A stretch of 64,000 bases of DNA from Myxococcota bacterium. Its GTDB lineage: Bacteria; Myxococcota_C; UBA6777. The notes beneath the pieces are model-generated. The model saw only the letters and a list, made by a program, of their open reading frames with translations. It ran no database searches and was not told where the DNA came from. Position 1 is the first letter of the stretch, and each line of letters opens with the position of its first letter. Shown here piece after piece: positions 25,385 through 46,592 of this stretch. The stretch lies in the NCBI GenBank assembly GCA_023150835.1, contig JAKLKB010000013.1, positions 1 through 64,000 of the forward strand. Reading direction: 5' to 3'. Both the position numbers and the translations under genes were made by a program.

Positions 25385-27052
25385 TCAATCTTTGCGCTCA
25401 AGCCAAAGACTCCAAAGAACCAAAAAACCCAAGAGGCTGCCCAACGCATAACCACCAAACGAGAACCACGACAAACCCAACAAGGCAGGCGTGCCAGAGT
25501 CCGCATTCATCGTCGCGATCAGCAAAAACACAAAGGACATCGCAACCATCAACTTGCGCCCATTTTGCCTGCGGTACTCGCGCAAAAAAGCCTCGAACTG
25601 GACGTTATCGATCCCGAACTTGATCCGCCCATTTTCCACGCCCATCAAGATCTGTTGAGCGGTAACGGGGAATTGTTTAAGCAGACGAAGAAGCTGTGTA
25701 GACTGCCGAAAAAGCTGGTTGGTGATCGATTCAAAGCTGTATCGTTCTTTGACAACCGCCCGAACATAGGGCTCGATCGCAGCGATCAGATCCATGTCGG
25801 GGTCCATCTGTTTGCCCACTCCTTCGACCGTGATCAGCGCCTTGAACATCATCGTATAATCGGGGGGAACCGCCATGCGATGCCGCATCGCACCTTCCAA
25901 GATATCCTGCAACAACCCGCCAAACTCGATATCGGACATCCGCGCCCCCACAAGGTGCTTGTCCATCACCAACATCACATCCGAAACAAATCGATCATAA
26001 TCCACAGGCGCACGTTTTCGACCGATCTCGTACAGCACTTCGGCCACCCCTTCGTAATCGCGCCTGATCACCGCCAACAACAGATCGATGATGTAATCTT
26101 TCATCCGAGGCGTCAGCCGCCCAACCAAACCAAAGTCGATCAACGCCACAGACAGATCTTCTTCGATCAAGATGTTCCCGGGATGTAGATCCCCATGAAA
26201 AAATCCATACACAAAGATCATCTCACACACCACACGAAGTGTATTCTTGACGATCTGTACCCGATCTCCTAGAGACTCCGTGATCTTCGAACCTTTGATC
26301 CGCTCCATCACAAGGATGCTTTTGTTCGACAAGGCGGGATAAGGGCGTGGGATATGCACCCCTTCGGCGTCTGCAAAGTTTTGGCGAAAGCGGTTGATGT
26401 TGCGTAGCTCGTGTGTAAAGTCGATCTCTTTTAAGATCTCTTTCTCGAACTCTTCGATCATCCCCACAGGATCGAACAATTCGATGTCTGCAAAGATCTG
26501 TGTGGCTTGCTTTGCCAAGAACTTCATCAGCGAAAGATCGCTGGTCATCGACTCCCGCGCCCCCGGGCGAGCCACTTTGACCACCACTTCGGTATCATCG
26601 GGCAGATACGCGATATGCACTTGTGCGATCGAAGCCGAAGCAAGGGGCTTTTCCTCAAAACGCAAAAACACTTCTTGGATCGGCTTTCCCAAAGACTCCT
26701 CGACTTGGATCTTGATCACCTCGAACGGAAGGGGCGCTGCGCTTGCTTGCAGGCGCTTAAACTCCACGATGTACTCTTCGGGGACGATATCTGCCCGTGT
26801 ACTCAGGATCTGCCCCAACTTGATAAACGTCGGCCCCAACTCTTGGATCGCCATGCACAGACGTTGGGGCGTCGACATCCCTTGATCGGGCTTGGCTTCT
26901 CCCACCAAGATCCGCCCGACGATATTTTCTTGCAGGTTCATCCGCGTCACCAGTTCGCCAAAACCATGACGCACCAGCACCGTGATGATCTGTCGCAAAC
27001 GGCCAACATCTTGCCACGCTTGCCCGATATTCGCATACCGCAATGGGTTCAT
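25385..27052 (-). CDS. ABC1/UbiB-family atypical kinase (AarF-like)
   Basis: A 555-residue protein. The family-specific KxGQ motif is present as KLGQILSTRAD, the Ala-rich loop as LASASIAQVHIA, and the nucleotide-binding lysine in VVVKVARPG. The catalytic loop is HGDLHPGNIL and the metal-binding motif DFGLVGRL. Two hydrophobic helices at the extreme C-terminus (VMVAMSFVFLLIATM, LLGLSWFSFGG...) anchor it to the membrane, as in UbiB. The start is the ATG at 27052, with GGGAGG seven bases upstream. In other bacteria this family supports ubiquinone or other isoprenoid-lipid metabolism; the substrate is not evident here. Confidence 0.9.
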   Translation of the reverse strand: MNPLRYANIGQAWQDVGRLRQIITVLVRHGFGELVTRMNLQENIVGRILVGEAKPDQGMSTPQRLCMAIQELGPTFIKLGQILSTRADIVPEEYIVEFKRLQASAAPLPFEVIKIQVEESLGKPIQEVFLRFEEKPLASASIAQVHIAYLPDDTEVVVKVARPGARESMTSDLSLMKFLAKQATQIFADIELFDPVGMIEEFEKEILKEIDFTHELRNINRFRQNFADAEGVHIPRPYPALSNKSILVMERIKGSKITESLGDRVQIVKNTLRVVCEMIFVYGFFHGDLHPGNILIEEDLSVALIDFGLVGRLTPRMKDYIIDLLLAVIRRDYEGVAEVLYEIGRKRAPVDYDRFVSDVMLVMDKHLVGARMSDIEFGGLLQDILEGAMRHRMAVPPDYTMMFKALITVEGVGKQMDPDMDLIAAIEPYVRAVVKERYSFESITNQLFRQSTQLLRLLKQFPVTAQQILMGVENGRIKFGIDNVQFEAFLREYRRQNGRKLMVAMSFVFLLIATMNADSGTPALLGLSWFSFGGYALGSLLGFLVLWSLWLERKD

Positions 27053-27212
27053 CAAAAAGCCTCCCTCGGCTCAAATAGACAGGTCACGACTCGCTTTTTT
27101 ATCGTCCAGCTCGAAAAAGACGGTGACTTGCGAAAGAGTTGTTGCACAAGCAACCGCATCATACAAACATCCGACAATCACCACAAACCTTTCCTTCACA
27201 AAAGGAACCTTT

Positions 27213-29285: not shown

Positions 29286-32200
29286 TTATCTTCGGGGTGA
29301 TCGGCGTTTGAAGGATCGCTTGCGTGTGGGTGGTTTGCTCACCTGCGCAGGCCCTCTTGTGTTTGCAGGCTCGCTCAGGGTGTGGAGGCTGGTATCGCGA
29401 AGTGCCGCGATCACCGCAGCATGCGAAAACTGACCCTGAGGGCGCAGGCTGACATGGTGAAGTCCTCGCCCTGCTGTCAACGCAAAGGGCGGTGCTTGCT
29501 GGAGCCTTGCCATCAGAGGCAGCGCTTCGCGTCCTGCCACCAACGCGCAAAGCTCGATCAGACGGCGCAAACGAGATAGCTTCTTGAAGAGATCGCTCGC
29601 TCGTTCTCGAACATCTGCAGCACTTCGTGGGCGCTCTCCCTGTTTGCGTGTTGTGGTGTAGACCAGTAGTTCTCGTTCTAGCAAAGCGAGCAAAGCAGGC
29701 GCGATCGCCGCGTTTCTTTGTGCGCGCAACGCGAAAAACACGGTGCTTTCGTCAGCCCCTGCCTTTTCCAAAAGCTCCAACAGCACATACGCGGCCTCGG
29801 GCCGCTCAAAACGGCCCAACGCATAGATCGCTGCATTCCGAACATAAGAATGCTCGCCCGAACGCGCCCATCGTGCAAACCTCGGAAGATCGACGGGATT
29901 TTGAAATATTTGAAGCGCCCGAACAAACCCTGACAACGAAGCACGCGCACGTAAACTTTTGTGCATCTCAGCGTGCGGCTTCTTTTTACAGAACTTTTCG
30001 TACAAGCTTGGGTTGTCGATACCTCGGTAGATATTCAAGACCTGCAAGAAATGTTGGCGAGAAGACGTCGTGTTGATGCGCGCCAGCGCGTTGAGAAAAG
30101 AAGCATAAGGGACATACTGCTTGTTCGGGGTACACAACAGCTTTTCCATGCTGTGGACCTCGATCTCTGTGGATTGAAAACGCCCAACATACCAAGTGAG
30201 TTGGCGCTCCAGATCTTCGGACCACACAGGCGTCGAAAGCAAGCGCGCAAGGGTCCGATAGGCTTCTTGCGAGCTAAACGCCCCCAAAGCTTGGCAGACA
30301 TAGCGCGCAAACATTACCCGCAGCCCTTTCGGCCAACCTGCGAACGGCTCGTTTGGCGAACCCATCGCTTTTTGCAAAGCTTCCCAAACCAAAGAAAAAT
30401 ACTTGTTGTCGTGTGTGTAAGAGAGCGCCAACGCTGCAAACAGCCTTGTATCAACGGAAGACGTCGGATCGCGCAAAACCCCTTTGATCAAGGGGATGCT
30501 TCTATCCGCATCAAAACGCGCAAGCGTGCGGGCCAGTCGATCTTTTTGAGAGAACTCCCGCAAACCTTTGTAGTATGCAGGCCGCAAAGCATGAAGCTTT
30601 TTGGAGTACTCTTTGTCTTTTCTTCGCTCACTGTAGCGCATCTCTTGCATCGCATAATAGGGCTTAATCTTGTCCAAATGGATGGGTTTGCGCAAGAACT
30701 CCAGCAAAAGCTGGGCAGCTTCTTTGGTATTGATCAAGTTAAAATAAGACAGCAACGGTTGCCAATATTCGCTATCCTTGCCCAAAAGTAGCGTCTTGTA
30801 GATCGGCAAAGCCCGTTCTGCATGACCGCGTGTCAACAGGATATACATCGCACGATAGCGCAACATCTGCCAATCTGTGCCCAAAAAGCGCGGATCGTTT
30901 TCTTGTAGGGCGGCTTGCACAAGAACCTCGACCGCCTCTGGTGTGCCCACCTGACTGAGCGCGTAATACGCCCAAACCACCGACCTTCTCAATCGATAGG
31001 GTACGCGGCGAGGCGAGGAGATTTTTTCAAGGCGATGCGGTTCTGTTTTTGCGCGCAAACCGCCTTGCGGAGGCTGTGCGGGGCTGTCTGTTGCGCGGGT
31101 GTCTGCGACAGGAACGGCCTTGGGAAAAGCATGACGGCTGGCTTGCTTGTCGGCGGGAGTGCGCAAACGCCGCAGCCATCGTTGGATCGCGGAGACATAG
31201 ATATCACTTGGCGCGTAGCGCGCAAGCACCAAAAGCCGATCGTCGTCCTCGGCGTCTTCGTCGAGTCCTTGGAGAACCCACGCTTGAACACCCGGTGTCG
31301 AGAGGCTGCGTAAGGCGTATTCAACGGTAGAACGGAACAATGCGATGCGTTTGTGCTTCATCAAAGCAAACAGGATCGATTCGAGGCGCTTGATATGCCC
31401 CTGCTGCACCTCGCCATTGTTCACAGCAAGCGCAGCATAGGGCAACAAGTACAGATAGGGATGCACCCAATCCTCGTTTTTCTGACGCTGTGCAAGCACC
31501 TTTTCGATGGCGTCATAGTCTTCTAACCAAGCCCCCACAAGACGCGACATCTCAGACTGGATCCCCGCAAAAAAGCTGATCATCTTGCGTTCTTGCTGCA
31601 CCAACAGCCGCTTTTGCTCGGCAAAAGGCAAGCGTGCGATCTGATAAGAAGCCCCTAACAACCGAAAGCTTTGATCCACAAACCCCACATCTCCGACCGA
31701 CAGCACACGCAAGACGCCGTTGTCCACCATCTCACGCAACAGCTTGCTTGACTGTTGCAGATCAAGCCGAGCCAACAGCGCGATCTGTTCGAGTGCATCA
31801 TCTCGCCGCACAGTCGGCGTTCTCTGGCGCAAGCTCAAAAAAGCCAATGCAGACAAAACCTTCATTTTCAGCGTCATCTCAAAGGCCCCATGATCCAGCA
31901 TATTACGAACCAGTCGATCGTAGATCACGCCGAGATTACGGGGAGCATGCCCCACCAACAAATAATACTGAACGCACAAAGACAAGATCAAAGGGTGGCT
32001 GATATTTTGGCTCAAATAACCATTGTTCATCAGTTCCCGAAAAAAGCGCGCAGAGGTTTGTTTGTACAAAAACTCCCTTGCGACGCGGCTTTCATACGAT
32101 TGTTGCTTGAGGCGCACAAAACGCGGTGCAAGCGACTCGATCACGGCGAGGCTGCGTTCTTTGTATACGGCTAAAATCGTACGACTTTTTCCATAACGCT

Positions 32201-34109
32201 CTGCGAACTCTACAACCTTCGGCAGGAGATTGGCGGGACTGCCGGCCTGTTCGATCTGCGTAAAGTAGAAGGTGGCGGCTCCTTGTTGGAAAAGCTTCTC
32301 CAGTCCCTCAAACCGAAACAACGGCTCACGTTCGCCATTGTATCCCGTGATGTCGCGTGCGGCCTCTTGGATCGTTTGCTCGATCGATTCATTTTTGAGC
32401 TTTGAAAGATCGATGGCGATCGCCAAGCGCCCGGCTTGGGTGTCTTTGAGCATCTCTCGGGCAACAAGCACCTGCAACAAAGTCGAACTGCTTACAAGCA
32501 AGGCGATCTGCGACTTCTGCTTGTGTTCTGCCAACGGGCGCAACTGACGTGAGGACTCCAGCTCGTCTTTGGTCTTTGGGCTTGTAGCTCCGCTGCTTCC
32601 TCCCGATGCAGCGGCACTTCCGCCACCTGTGGATGCCGTCGCGTCCGCCTTCTTACCGCTGCCTTCGCTCTTTTTGCCTGCCGAAGCATCCGTCTCTTGG
32701 TTGGCTTGTTCCTCACTTTGTTCTAATGAAACGTAGATATCAGGAAACCTGCCCATGCTATCGAGCAGAGGATGGGCCTCCAACCGTGCGCGCAAGCGCT
32801 GGCGATAGAGCCTTGGGATCACCTGTTCGGCGCGCAGTGTTTGGACTTGATCTTCGGTGCCTTTGCGCAGATGCGCGAGATACGTTCCGATGTACGGAAA
32901 AGAAAGCCTTCCTTCTTTCGGGACTTCGGCCTTTTTGATCTCTGCCATCCCCTTATCGAGAGCAGCTTCCGCGTTGAGGACCGCTTTGGGAGAGGGATTT
33001 GGTGGACTCAAGGCCAAGCGAGCCACGACCACCTTTCTTCGTACAGTATCGAGCTTGTCGTTGTATTGATCGTAGTCTCGATAGTTTAGAAAGCTGATGA
33101 TCAAAAAGATCAAAAACACCACCCCGAGGATGCTGCGCAAAGAAACTTGCGGCAGCTTTTCGAGCAGCCCCGAAAACAGGTTGGCTCCCGGGACAAAGAC
33201 CAAGATCGGCTTGAGATCGATCGACCGGTTAAGGATCGCATTCAATCCGCCCGGCAGTCCGACGATTTCGGCATCATGGAGCGAAGTCGGCTCGATACCG
33301 CGCTGTTGGGCGATGGCATCCAAAACATCACCGACATCATCCGCGACGATCCGCACAAATGTCTGATGGTGCTGCGTCAGCCATTGCAGCGATGTTTGTG
33401 CGGTCGGTAGTTCTTCGATGACTTCGTCGTAATGGCGATCTTCGATCCAAACCACCGGCATCTCGGGCTTTGTGACCACAAGCTTCATCAAGCCATTCAT
33501 CATATCACTTGGATACGGGTGTTGGCCCGCCACGATTACCCCGTCCGTGGTGTCAAGCATGGCTTGGAGACGCTGCTTGACAAACATGGCTTCTCGGTTT
33601 CGCCGATCTTCTCGATCTTGAAAGATCAGGTCGTCCCACTCTTTGACAAGCTGTAGTCCATTTCCCGACCATGCGGGCTTTTCAAGCGAAACGACTTCGT
33701 AGGCGACGTGTTGTTGATCGAAGGCTTGTTCAAGCAGATCATCGGGCGCGCTGCTGACCACCCCCGCAAACATCCCGCTGCGCGCCAGATCCGCAAGCCG
33801 GATGATGCTTCGTTGTGGACGCAGGTTGTTTGTGTAATTGCGAAACCACTTGATCTGCTCTTGAAGTTGATCGGCCACAAACCCCAACGGCGCTTTGCCC
33901 GAACGCAAGGCTTGTTCCACACTGTCGGCGACTTCGCGACTTTGCGTCCGAAAGATATGGTAGCGCACCAGATCCGCGACACTCGGCGACCAAGAAGTCC
34001 GTTGAAAAGGCAACGGTACACCGCTCGTTGCACCAAGATGAGAGCCTGCGATCAACAACCACCGCTTTTTTGCATCCTCGAAAACAGACAACGATCCCTG
34101 CCAAGACAT
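29286..34109 (-). CDS. Giant membrane protein: degenerate SIR2-like, TM, degenerate NACHT/STAND, HEAT-like repeats
   Basis: A 1607-residue protein; start at 34109 with GGGAGG seven bases upstream. Residues 1-~290 read like a SIR2-like fold that lost its NAD-binding residues: LLIAGSHLGATSGVP (18-32) stands in the glycine-rich position and GVVSSAPDDLLEQAF (116-130) where TTNYDxLLE is expected. One helix lies at ~326-343, followed by a Ser/Gly/Lys linker at ~465-515. Residues ~530-820 follow a NACHT/STAND order, but Walker A is replaced by LLVSSSTLLQVLVARE (537-552) and Walker B by FYFTQIEQ (614-621). The winged-helix part (ISHPLILSLCVQYYLLVGHA and after) is better kept. The C-terminal ~700 residues are HEAT-like helical repeats. 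Domain calls are by eye. It would be a non-catalytic scaffold or sensor. Confidence 0.7.
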   Translation of the reverse strand: MSWQGSLSVFEDAKKRWLLIAGSHLGATSGVPLPFQRTSWSPSVADLVRYHIFRTQSREVADSVEQALRSGKAPLGFVADQLQEQIKWFRNYTNNLRPQRSIIRLADLARSGMFAGVVSSAPDDLLEQAFDQQHVAYEVVSLEKPAWSGNGLQLVKEWDDLIFQDREDRRNREAMFVKQRLQAMLDTTDGVIVAGQHPYPSDMMNGLMKLVVTKPEMPVVWIEDRHYDEVIEELPTAQTSLQWLTQHHQTFVRIVADDVGDVLDAIAQQRGIEPTSLHDAEIVGLPGGLNAILNRSIDLKPILVFVPGANLFSGLLEKLPQVSLRSILGVVFLIFLIISFLNYRDYDQYNDKLDTVRRKVVVARLALSPPNPSPKAVLNAEAALDKGMAEIKKAEVPKEGRLSFPYIGTYLAHLRKGTEDQVQTLRAEQVIPRLYRQRLRARLEAHPLLDSMGRFPDIYVSLEQSEEQANQETDASAGKKSEGSGKKADATASTGGGSAAASGGSSGATSPKTKDELESSRQLRPLAEHKQKSQIALLVSSSTLLQVLVAREMLKDTQAGRLAIAIDLSKLKNESIEQTIQEAARDITGYNGEREPLFRFEGLEKLFQQGAATFYFTQIEQAGSPANLLPKVVEFAERYGKSRTILAVYKERSLAVIESLAPRFVRLKQQSYESRVAREFLYKQTSARFFRELMNNGYLSQNISHPLILSLCVQYYLLVGHAPRNLGVIYDRLVRNMLDHGAFEMTLKMKVLSALAFLSLRQRTPTVRRDDALEQIALLARLDLQQSSKLLREMVDNGVLRVLSVGDVGFVDQSFRLLGASYQIARLPFAEQKRLLVQQERKMISFFAGIQSEMSRLVGAWLEDYDAIEKVLAQRQKNEDWVHPYLYLLPYAALAVNNGEVQQGHIKRLESILFALMKHKRIALFRSTVEYALRSLSTPGVQAWVLQGLDEDAEDDDRLLVLARYAPSDIYVSAIQRWLRRLRTPADKQASRHAFPKAVPVADTRATDSPAQPPQGGLRAKTEPHRLEKISSPRRVPYRLRRSVVWAYYALSQVGTPEAVEVLVQAALQENDPRFLGTDWQMLRYRAMYILLTRGHAERALPIYKTLLLGKDSEYWQPLLSYFNLINTKEAAQLLLEFLRKPIHLDKIKPYYAMQEMRYSERRKDKEYSKKLHALRPAYYKGLREFSQKDRLARTLARFDADRSIPLIKGVLRDPTSSVDTRLFAALALSYTHDNKYFSLVWEALQKAMGSPNEPFAGWPKGLRVMFARYVCQALGAFSSQEAYRTLARLLSTPVWSEDLERQLTWYVGRFQSTEIEVHSMEKLLCTPNKQYVPYASFLNALARINTTSSRQHFLQVLNIYRGIDNPSLYEKFCKKKPHAEMHKSLRARASLSGFVRALQIFQNPVDLPRFARWARSGEHSYVRNAAIYALGRFERPEAAYVLLELLEKAGADESTVFFALRAQRNAAIAPALLALLERELLVYTTTRKQGERPRSAADVRERASDLFKKLSRLRRLIELCALVAGREALPLMARLQQAPPFALTAGRGLHHVSLRPQGQFSHAAVIAALRDTSLHTLSEPANTRGPAQVSKPPTRKRSFKRRSPRR

Positions 34110-34221
34110 ACGACAACCTCCCTCTTGATGGCCTATTTGGCCTTGTTGCCTTCTTTTGGGACTCTTGCTCCCTTTGGACGACCGGGGCGACTTGGATCGA
34201 AGTAACGCGGTGAACAAAAAA

Positions 34222-43916: not shown

Positions 43917-45029
43917 TCACACCATCGGACTTGCGGGGCGCGCATCCCTCACCCACGCCTCCCATCGCTGCGAAGGCATCCGCCAAAAGATCCACAACCC
44001 CAAAGCCCCTGTGACGATCGCAAGAAATTGTCCCGGCGTATAACCCGCATAACGGGCCTCATCGACACGCAGGACGTCCATCGCAAAACGAACCGGGGCA
44101 TACGCCACCATCCAAAACCCCAGAGACGCCCCGATCCTTCGGTGTAGATCGCGACTGCTTCGAAAGTTGATCCACACCAACACCCCCAACAAGAGGGCTT
44201 CTAAGACGCCCAAATCGTATCTCGGATGCGTCCGAAATTGCGCATTTTCCGCCCAAAAGACATGGATTTGCTCGATCTGGGCGTGGGTGGCGTCTTCCCA
44301 AAATCGCACCGGCCAATGCAGCGTCAAGCCCTTGAGCAACCACCCCAAAAATGGATGCGCAACAAACGCCATCATCCCCGCACCAACGACCACAAAAAAA
44401 CTTGAAACGCTCCAAAAAGGTTGTTCTTCCCATCGGCTCCACAAAAAAGCCAGCCACACCCCCACAAACAACACGGCCAACCAAAACCTCCACGAATCCA
44501 ACGGCAAGATCTCGACCAACACCGCCGTCTGATCGGTGGGATAGAAGATCCCAACATCGCCCAGATGTTGTGGCTTTCCCGGGAACCAAACCCCCGGATG
44601 ATCATGCGCGATCGCACACCCCAACCGCCCTAAAAAAAAGGCCGGCAAAAATCCGTAAGACATCACCTCCAAATACGGAAACAACGGAGCCCCCCGCCAA
44701 CGCAAGTACACAACGATCACCAACAGCCCCCCCAAAAATCCCCCAAACGAAGAGATCCCCATCCAAGGCGCAAACAAACGCAGCGGATTTTCCAAGACTT
44801 TCTCAGGAAAGTACAACAGATCCGAAAACACATGCGACAGAAAAAAGCCACCCACCACCGCCCAAAAGATCGTATCGATCGTCAAGTTGGCGTCCAACCC
44901 CACCGCTTCCGCACGCTGGCGCGCCAAACGCGCCCCCCACACCACCCCCAACGCGATCAAGATCCCAAACACTTGCACCGAAAAAAAGTTCCCAAACTTG
45001 TAGACGGGAACATGAAGATAAGGCAACAT
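43917..45029 (-). CDS. Variant prolipoprotein diacylglyceryl transferase (Lgt-like)
   Basis: A 371-residue polytopic membrane protein; the ATG at 45029 has GGAG five bases upstream. The N-terminal MLPYLHVPVYKFGNFFSVQ and ISSFGGFLGGLL stretches match Lgt. The signature region reads GRLGCAIAHDHPG, with Cys where most Lgt proteins have Asn. The later RFAMDVLRVDEARY and GYTPGQ replace the usual RFxxExxR and QxLS region. This pattern fits a deltaproteobacterial Lgt-like branch. Lgt adds diacylglycerol to the lipobox cysteine of prolipoproteins, and the nearby lipoprotein genes are plausible substrates. Activity of the variant is not certain. Confidence 0.78.
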   Translation of the reverse strand: MLPYLHVPVYKFGNFFSVQVFGILIALGVVWGARLARQRAEAVGLDANLTIDTIFWAVVGGFFLSHVFSDLLYFPEKVLENPLRLFAPWMGISSFGGFLGGLLVIVVYLRWRGAPLFPYLEVMSYGFLPAFFLGRLGCAIAHDHPGVWFPGKPQHLGDVGIFYPTDQTAVLVEILPLDSWRFWLAVLFVGVWLAFLWSRWEEQPFWSVSSFFVVVGAGMMAFVAHPFLGWLLKGLTLHWPVRFWEDATHAQIEQIHVFWAENAQFRTHPRYDLGVLEALLLGVLVWINFRSSRDLHRRIGASLGFWMVAYAPVRFAMDVLRVDEARYAGYTPGQFLAIVTGALGLWIFWRMPSQRWEAWVRDARPASPMV

Positions 45030-45092
45030 AACCACTCCAGACGTAAATCGCCGAACCATCGGCCAAAAGGACGAAAAGAAAGTTTTCCTGCG

Positions 45093-46592
45093 ATGCAACG
45101 GTACTATTACATGATCCAGCGCGACGGGCGCTATGCCCTCGGCCAAACGCACCGAATTCACGCCTTGATCACCGACCCCCACACCCCAGAAGACCACCCC
45201 GAACGCCTGTGGCTGATGGCCGATAAAGCCCTTTCTTCCTCCGAGCAGGCCTACCTCGAACGCCTGTTGGAGATGGCCGAAGATACGCCTTTTGGCCCCA
45301 CGCTCGCTGTGTCTGAAACAGAAGCCAAGCGCATCTTGGATGCCTTACAAAAAAAATCCCTTCAAGACAAAGCCGACACGCCCGACGCTCCCGATCATAC
45401 GGTCCCTCCCACCACACCACCCAAAACAGCGAGGCATCCGTCCCATCCCATCGAGCAGTCCACAAAACACACCCATTCGCACCATCCCATCGAGCAATCC
45501 GCAAAACACACCCATTCGCACCATCCCATCGAGCAATCCGCAAAACACACCCATTCGCACCATCCCATCGAGCAATCCGCAAAACACACCCACTCGCACC
45601 ATCCCATCGAGCAATCCGCCGAAACGACCGCGCCACGTCAGATATCCTTCCTTGATGCCAAAGCACAGATCACCCTTCCAACAGCCCCCTCAGGAGGATC
45701 ACGCCGTCATCCGCGCATCGACGCTTGGCCCGATCCTGCTCAATCGGCCCTTCGTCCAACGCATCCGACGTTATCTTCTTCCGACGAACCTCTGACAGGA
45801 GGGCAAGAGATCGCCTCGAACCGTCCCCTTGCTCAGCGGCAAGGGCTTCTTCAACAAAGTCTGTTTGGTCGATGGCAACAGGGAGATATCCTGTCTTTGC
45901 ACACAGAAACAAATGGGGATCTGCTTCTTCGCTTGATGGATGTCGACGCCCTCCAACGCCTGTTGCGGCTCCGAGATGCGTTTCATCAACAAGAATCGAC
46001 CGTCTCCGCGCTTTTCTCTCCCGTTGACTTGCTGCTTGCGGCGGTGCAAAACAAGCCACCGTACCCGATGCAGCCGAACCAAGCCTACTTTGTGTATCAG
46101 CCGATCCACCTGTATCGTCGGCTCTTTGGCTCGTGGCTCCCCGACGACAGCGCGCACGAAGTCCACGCCTTTTTCAACGAACAGATCGACGCAGAAGAAT
46201 GCTTTCTCTGTCTCGGTCGCCCCTTTCAAAGCCGAAGAACCCACGCGCAGCGCGGCGAGATGGGAACGTATCGAGGTGAAGTCGTGCGATCTTGGGTGAT
46301 CCCACTCCTCCAAGATCCGTCCACAGACCTCTTTGAAAAACTCTTGCGCGACGCCCAAATCCGCTGCCCAATTTATGACCAAAACCTCGGCCATTTGGGA
46401 GAGATGGAATTTTACTTTCGATTGCTCCAACAACTTGGCCTCCATCCCGACCACATCCTCGAAGAGATCGAAGATATCATCCCGATTGATAGCCTTTGCC
46501 GGCTACTGGAGGTGGATCGCCCTCCGCTCACCCCTGACCGCGAGTCAGATGATCTGCCACCCTTCGCCCGTGATCAAGACGACGACTTCTGA
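45093..46592 (+). CDS. Unknown cytoplasmic protein with His-rich tandem repeats
   Basis: A 499-residue protein not recognised from any family. The N-terminal ~75 residues form a small domain (MIQRDGRYALGQTHRIHAL...). Residues ~118-175 contain four and a half copies of the 13-residue repeat HPIEQSAKHTHSH. The C-terminal ~270 residues look globular: DLLLRLMDVDALQRLLRLRD, YFVYQPIHLYRRLFG and EMEFYFRLLQQLGLHPD. No signal peptide or helix is seen. The start is uncertain because the ribosome binding site is weak; ATG at 45111 is an alternative. The His cluster could bind metal. Confidence 0.65.
   Translation: MQRYYYMIQRDGRYALGQTHRIHALITDPHTPEDHPERLWLMADKALSSSEQAYLERLLEMAEDTPFGPTLAVSETEAKRILDALQKKSLQDKADTPDAPDHTVPPTTPPKTARHPSHPIEQSTKHTHSHHPIEQSAKHTHSHHPIEQSAKHTHSHHPIEQSAKHTHSHHPIEQSAETTAPRQISFLDAKAQITLPTAPSGGSRRHPRIDAWPDPAQSALRPTHPTLSSSDEPLTGGQEIASNRPLAQRQGLLQQSLFGRWQQGDILSLHTETNGDLLLRLMDVDALQRLLRLRDAFHQQESTVSALFSPVDLLLAAVQNKPPYPMQPNQAYFVYQPIHLYRRLFGSWLPDDSAHEVHAFFNEQIDAEECFLCLGRPFQSRRTHAQRGEMGTYRGEVVRSWVIPLLQDPSTDLFEKLLRDAQIRCPIYDQNLGHLGEMEFYFRLLQQLGLHPDHILEEIEDIIPIDSLCRLLEVDRPPLTPDRESDDLPPFARDQDDDF
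45444..45617 (+). repeat. In-frame tandem array, 39-bp unit, 4.5 copies
   Basis: Units begin at 45444, 45483, 45522, 45561 and 45600 (partial). The unit starts CATCCCATCGAGCA and ends CACACCCATTCGCAC. Copies are almost identical at the DNA level, including third codon positions, which points to recent expansion. The unit length is divisible by three, so every frame stays open, explaining the long antisense frames here. Confidence 0.9.

Follow-up and report, generated by a model that had tools for sequence, protein, structure and literature searches.

Avs5 (AVAST type 5) proteins are SIR2-STAND immune proteins in which a SIR2 domain, a STAND NTPase and a helical repeat sensor follow one another in that order. 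Immunity by PaAvs5 is lost when the SIR2 asparagine (N110A) or the Walker A glycine or lysine is mutated, and variation at related positions includes NG in place of the catalytic HG in about half of Avs5 homologs and a Walker B motif with one acid in PaAvs5 itself (PMC12931631). Dead STANDs are already known: the inactive STANDs iSTAND, iSTAND2 and BrxB have been proposed as invader sensors, and by published accounts iSTANDs evolve rapidly and their helical bundle is reduced (PMC7159879, PMC8195603, PMC12839542). In the literature searched, no protein was found that combines a dead SIR2, a dead but complete NACHT, a membrane anchor and HEAT repeats.

Here, we analyze a protein with this combination of folds, encoded in a 64,000-nucleotide stretch of DNA (the window) taken from contig C131 of a 7.6-Mb draft genome. 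The original prediction, made from the window's sequence, had described a membrane-anchored pseudo-SIR2/pseudo-NACHT/HEAT protein with an Avs5-like order of domains.

Gene, protein architecture and family

The gene is a single open frame on the minus strand, from an ATG at 34109 to a stop at 29286, and encodes 1607 residues (Table 1). A SIR2 fold (residues 1-285) is followed by a predicted membrane helix (322-341), a NACHT-type STAND core with a winged helix (about 530-830) and a HEAT solenoid. The three motifs quoted in the original prediction, GVVSSAPDDLLEQ, LLVSSSTLLQVLVARE and FYFTQIEQ, all occur in this translation. A chance reading frame is excluded by a sister-species ortholog with 91% identity and an overall dN/dS of 0.11, as well as by two more homologs at 39% and 28% identity, so that the 4.8-kb frame is indeed intact and selected.

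Table 1 Positions of the gene and its features in the window
Feature	Residues	Position	Strand	Basis
Shine-Dalgarno/ribosome-binding site, GGAGG		34117..34121	minus	7-base spacer to ATG; read directly
CDS, pseudo-SIR2/membrane helix/pseudo-NACHT/HEAT protein	1607 aa	29286..34109	minus	Single open frame; homologs; dN/dS
SIR2-fold domain	4-285	33255..34100	minus	AF2 model (four sequences), PDB matches, hhalign
NAD-binding GAGxS position, here GSHLG (family GS[HD][LW][GA])		34032..34046	minus	hhalign register; family comparison
TTN[YF]D position, here SSAPD (catalytic Asn to Ala, Thr in L009; Asp kept)		33741..33755	minus	hhalign register; family comparison
Catalytic-His K-x-H-G position, here invariant K-E-W-D (His to Trp)		33633..33644	minus	hhalign register; 4/4 members
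Weaker hydrophobic stretch, conserved PI..[FY]VPG	301-317	33159..33209	minus	Hydropathy 0.85-1.55 in four members
Predicted membrane helix	322-341	33087..33146	minus	Best hydropathy window in each member
Helical region past the membrane helix	345-460	32730..33077	minus	AF2 secondary structure
Low-complexity Ser/Gly/Lys linker	466-517	32559..32714	minus	Sequence; poorly conserved, mostly gapped in paralogs
NACHT-like NTPase core without catalytic residues	about 530-735	31905..32522	minus	AF2 pLDDT 72, NLR matches, hhalign
Walker A position, LVSSSTLL (Gly-Lys absent in every member)		32475..32498	minus	hhalign register; family comparison
Walker B position, FYFTQIEQ (acid pair absent in every member)		32247..32270	minus	hhalign register; family comparison
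Helical/winged-helix tail of the NACHT module	736-830	31620..31904	minus	AF2; NACHT alignment continues through tail
Helical and HEAT-repeat solenoid	about 831-1500	29610..31619	minus	Pfam HEAT_2, HEAT_PBS; alphaRep profile matches

The family comprises four members from two genera, at 28-91% identity: the window protein, its ortholog L011 (91%; Myxococcota bacterium KLAP109), and the paralogs L010 (39%) and L009 (28%), both from a third genome (G003). Two further genomes of the same taxonomic family, both incomplete drafts, gave no match. Relatives beyond this protein family were absent from a 386-genome sample spread mostly over the domain, the single match in the genome_contigs collection was the sister species, and no copy was found among plasmids, phages and viral contigs. 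Within the data searched, the family looks confined to this lineage. Between the window gene and L011, dN/dS is 0.08 for the SIR2 block, 0.05 for the NACHT core, 0.12 for the HEAT part and 0.25 for the C-terminal tail, compared with 0.02-0.07 for the neighboring genes. The gene thus evolves faster than its housekeeping neighbors yet is clearly kept by purifying selection, and its two dead domains are the best-kept large parts.

The HEAT-like repeats of the original prediction are confirmed by Pfam HEAT_2, which matches four stretches (E 2.5e-15; 57 bits against a curated cut-off of 27.7) and is matched in every family member, placing the protein among HEAT-repeat proteins. The solenoid also gives profile matches to alphaRep (HEAT-like) chains, with a best E of 8e-11. 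Structure models reach residue 990, and the description past that point comes from sequence and profile evidence. Residues 345-460 have no Pfam match; a likeness to IcmF/TssM seen by eye in the region past the membrane helix was rejected (hhalign score 17).

The N-terminal SIR2-fold domain

The AF2 model of the N-terminal block, built from four sequences, has a mean pLDDT of 61, with the core strands and helices scoring better, and places six strands in a Rossmann-like order. Every Foldseek match of residues 1-285 at E<=0.001 (22 of 22, best E 4e-5) is a SIR2 protein or a SIR2-containing complex, ranging from Sir2Tm to SPARSA, with SIR2-HerA, ThsA and DSR2 further down the list. VIA agrees, its best 50 rows all being SIR2 (Z 14.7-15.8, the highest corresponding to an rmsd of 4.5 over 189 residues). 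Independently of structure, hhalign of the family against 19 SIR2_2 proteins from other genomes gave a moderate score of 34.3 over 181 columns (P 4e-4), above all 40 column shuffles (maximum 26.6, mean 14.0) and above a cross-comparison with NACHT (20.8), and its register holds across the GAGxS, TTNxD, HG and GYS strand positions. A SIR2-like fold at the N-terminus, as originally proposed, is therefore supported.

The residues of a SIR2 enzyme, namely GAGxS, the TTNxD asparagine and the HG histidine, are missing from this fold. At the GAGxS position the window protein, L011 and L010 all read GSHLG and L009 reads GSDWA; at the TTN[YF]D position the first three read SSAPD and L009 reads SSTPD. 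The original prediction that this motif had been lost holds for the TTN and the aromatic residue, replaced by SSAP, and fails for the following aspartate, which is retained as D123. In addition, K156, E157, W158, D159, D160, P122, D123 and D124 are invariant in the family, and because these positions do not vary, the aligned sequences indicate that the old active site has taken on a new form that is conserved rather than decaying.

The NACHT-like core

In the AF2 model of residues 518-990 (pLDDT 72), a core of five strands is accompanied by a helical part and a winged helix. The model's best Foldseek matches are NLRP7, NLRP14, NLRP3 and NLRC4 (E 1e-7 to 1e-5), with Avs4 at 7e-4, while VIA pairs it with NLRP3 (Z 12.4, 381 residues), at an rmsd of 10.7 that points to a different arrangement of the domains within the block, and with AVAST5 (Z 9.9). 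A first hhalign control set, made up mostly of other P-loop ATPases, gave no match. Against a new comparison set of 17 strong NACHT matches, hhalign reached a score of 116.9 (E 2.8e-16, 281 of 313 columns, with a maximum of 20.8 among 40 shuffles), the strongest single result of the analysis. The winged-helix tail is retained as predicted, both in the alignment, which spans it, and in the model (H252-263, H267-279, E283-287 and E290-293 in model numbering). Thus, structure prediction recovered SIR2 and NACHT/STAND folds for the two blocks rather than unrelated ones, and the homologs in the family likewise did not speak against a relation to SIR2/STAND proteins.

The complete STAND fold lacks the GxxxxGK[ST] and Walker B acids of an NTPase. 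At Walker A the window protein and L011 carry LVSSSTLL, L010 FSKSSMLL and L009 YYRSGSFL; at Walker B the first two carry FYFTQIEQ, L010 FYFLNLDT and L009 VYIPTFDA. The P-loop Gly/Lys and the Walker B acid pair, reported missing in the original prediction, are absent from all four members, and the NACHT helical part keeps its PL motif (HPLIL, P706). Catalytic positions of both the SIR2 and the NACHT site are replaced in 4/4 members, so that the loss is family-wide. Since the SIR2 positions are invariant in a new form and the Walker positions drift among these four sequences, it seems that the SIR2 pocket was remade and that the NTP pocket was given up.

Searches of the protein with Pfam, NCBIfam, PADLOC, and phmmer and hmmsearch against PDB found no SIR2 or NACHT domain, and in particular neither SIR2_2 nor NACHT of Pfam. 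The profile test suggested earlier was therefore negative with Pfam and positive with hhalign, which supports both domains and puts the lost motifs at the catalytic positions. Because profile-profile and fold comparisons detect both domains, the misses of sequence HMMs reflect a limit of sensitivity and not the absence of the domains. Such proteins can escape sequence HMMs entirely, and immune-protein surveys that rely on HMMs probably underestimate the number of pseudo-STANDs.

Membrane segment and topology

The central membrane helix of the original prediction is likewise predicted in all four members, at about residues 322-341. The SIR2 block shows no apparent signal peptide, so a single crossing at this helix would leave the NACHT and HEAT parts outside the cytoplasm. 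Counts of Lys+Arg in the 25 residues flanking the helix on either side (N/C 2/6, 2/6, 3/3 and 3/5 in the four members) argue against that placement and give no clear topology from charge balance. Residues 301-317 could form the first arm of a membrane hairpin, and a hairpin that leaves the SIR2 and NACHT/HEAT parts all cytoplasmic is weakly favored on these sequence features. It seems improbable that the protein is instead an extracytoplasmic STAND scaffold with one helix, a cytosolic N-terminus and a periplasmic NACHT-like core and HEAT solenoid, in which case loss of the P-loop would reflect adaptation to a compartment without ATP.

Genomic context and related families

The window gene lies among genes for ValRS (by sequence), a DUF4476 protein, an ABC1 kinase, an outer-membrane barrel, a phosphoribosyltransferase, an acyl-CoA dehydrogenase, FHIPEP and TPR proteins, and gene order is unchanged in the sister species. 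Of the paralogs, L009 sits by sensor histidine kinases and L010 by another ABC1 kinase. Pfam searches of the main window neighbors and of the genes around both G003 paralogs found no MoxR, vWA or BREX genes, and PADLOC revealed no clear defense gene in the flanking genes scanned; ABC1 matches to PD-T4-6 are read as kinase-fold cross-matches. The neighboring defense genes that a survey of homologs might have turned up were thus not seen among these flanking genes, and the locus is not a defense island.

ABC1 (UbiB-type) kinase genes (window 25385-27055; L041:16165-18000; L010:6050-7438) lie within 10 kb of the window gene, of a gene of a second NACHT-like family in G004, and of the L010 paralog, which may be chance. 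The kinases of the window and of G004 look orthologous, and that near L010 looks like another subfamily. Elsewhere in the window, an ORF at 44832-46592 encodes tandem HSHHPIEQSAKHT repeats followed by a longer C-terminal part.

This second NACHT-like family is unrelated to the window protein, with members of about 1900-2170 aa (L038:5818-11475, on contig C16 of the window's own genome; L040; L041:5866-11994; L116) and matches in 5/5 genomes of the phylum, which as assigned in our genome set comprises five genomes. Its proteins have hydrophobic segments near the N-terminus, and in the four readable genomes, from three genera, Walker A reads G..G.GHT (Lys to His) and Walker B DGFHE. Adjoining the L038 gene is one for an FtsH-like AAA + M41 peptidase protein (723 aa, L038:3370-5541). 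A second membrane NACHT family with an altered P-loop in the same phylum hints at a wider habit of the lineage. SIR2_2 (PF13289) was detected at E 0.001 in none of these five genomes (G000-G004) and in 57 of 290 sampled genomes.

Possible functions

The best explanation, to which we give a probability of roughly 0.55, is that the protein is a non-enzymatic membrane scaffold or adaptor, a double pseudoenzyme of the STAND type. The SIR2-fold domain would have lost the usual binding and cleavage of NAD and could serve as an interaction module near the inner membrane. The NACHT and winged-helix core, its ATP switch function presumably lost, would offer a fixed platform for docking or assembly, perhaps by self-assembly, and the HEAT solenoid would bind a partner. 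By analogy, the loss of immunity in the PaAvs5 N110A and Walker A Gly/Lys mutants supports inactivity of both sites; we infer it rather than assert it, since single atypical residues still work in Avs5 (NG and the one-acid Walker B; PMC12931631).

Such atypical yet working sites, together with the invariant polar clusters at the old SIR2 site (K156, E157, W158, D159, D160, D123 and D124), would also suit a protein with an unusual ligand or activity, whose remodeled pocket (KEWDD, SSxPDD) binds another metabolite and whose NACHT pocket binds nucleotide atypically. This is unlikely, as the substitutions affect all three NAD motifs and both Walker motifs at once and the Walker positions vary among members, unlike a site in use. 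Far less probable still is that the protein is a decoy, or acts dominant-negatively on active SIR2 or NACHT proteins of the same cell as their partner, even though such a role has been suggested for inactive copies of active enzymes in other conflict systems (PMC7159879) and FAM118A and FAM118B function only as a pair (PMC12700824). We rate it low because the phylum genomes contain no SIR2_2 domain, the sirtuin family searched there, and the other NACHT-like proteins found in them are not closely related to the window protein.

An immune role is possible, and of the alternatives to a scaffold or adaptor we regard an immune sensor of the inactive-STAND kind as the least doubtful. In such a sensor an invader component would be recognized by the HEAT solenoid or by the dead STAND core, which would signal via a partner encoded elsewhere. 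The domain order is that of SIR2-STAND immune proteins, Avs4 and AVAST5 are among the structural matches, a sensor function has been proposed for inactive STANDs of MoxR-vWA and BREX systems (PMC7159879, PMC8195603, PMC12839542), and a weak PADLOC match to PDC-S65 (E 6e-4, residues 105-143) adds a faint hint. Against this stand the flanking genes scanned, among which there is no MoxR, vWA, BREX or other defense gene, the conserved gene order in the sister species, the lack of plasmid, phage or viral copies, and the slow evolution of the STAND block, compared with the fast evolution described for published iSTANDs. Gene context and slow evolution lean toward a housekeeping role.

Comparison with known systems

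Typical bNACHT proteins and animal NLRs share the NACHT core, winged helix and repeats with the window protein, whose top structural matches are NLRPs and NLRC4. Their P-loop is intact, whereas here it is gone and the N-terminus is a dead SIR2 domain with a membrane segment. BrxB and other BREX iSTANDs have lost their Walker motifs, as has the window protein, but BrxB is compact, without a helical bundle, and is found in BREX loci, none of which is present at the window gene. The iSTAND and iSTAND2 proteins of MoxR-vWA ternary systems likewise have a STAND domain with eroded NTP-binding motifs, and some of these systems are thought to be membrane-near, as the window protein is predicted to be. 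Judged by the descriptions of iSTANDs, the window protein perhaps works like one; it differs in its complete NACHT module with helical part and winged helix, its slow evolution, its SIR2 fusion and its surroundings, in which no adjacent MoxR and vWA genes were found.

With Avs5, the window protein shares the order of SIR2, STAND NTPase and helical repeat domains, and the structural matches of its NACHT block include the AVAST5 filament. The description of the protein as Avs5-like stands for this domain order and not beyond it: the SIR2 asparagine of TTNxD and the Walker A Gly/Lys on which PaAvs5 depends (PMC12931631) are absent, and the repeat sensor, described as TPR in that protein, is replaced by HEAT repeats, with an inserted membrane helix. 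Relative to a SIR2-STAND protein, both the effector and the switch would have been lost while the 1600-residue architecture was kept, which makes it testable what SIR2 and STAND folds do when free of their chemistry: hold shape, assemble or bind.
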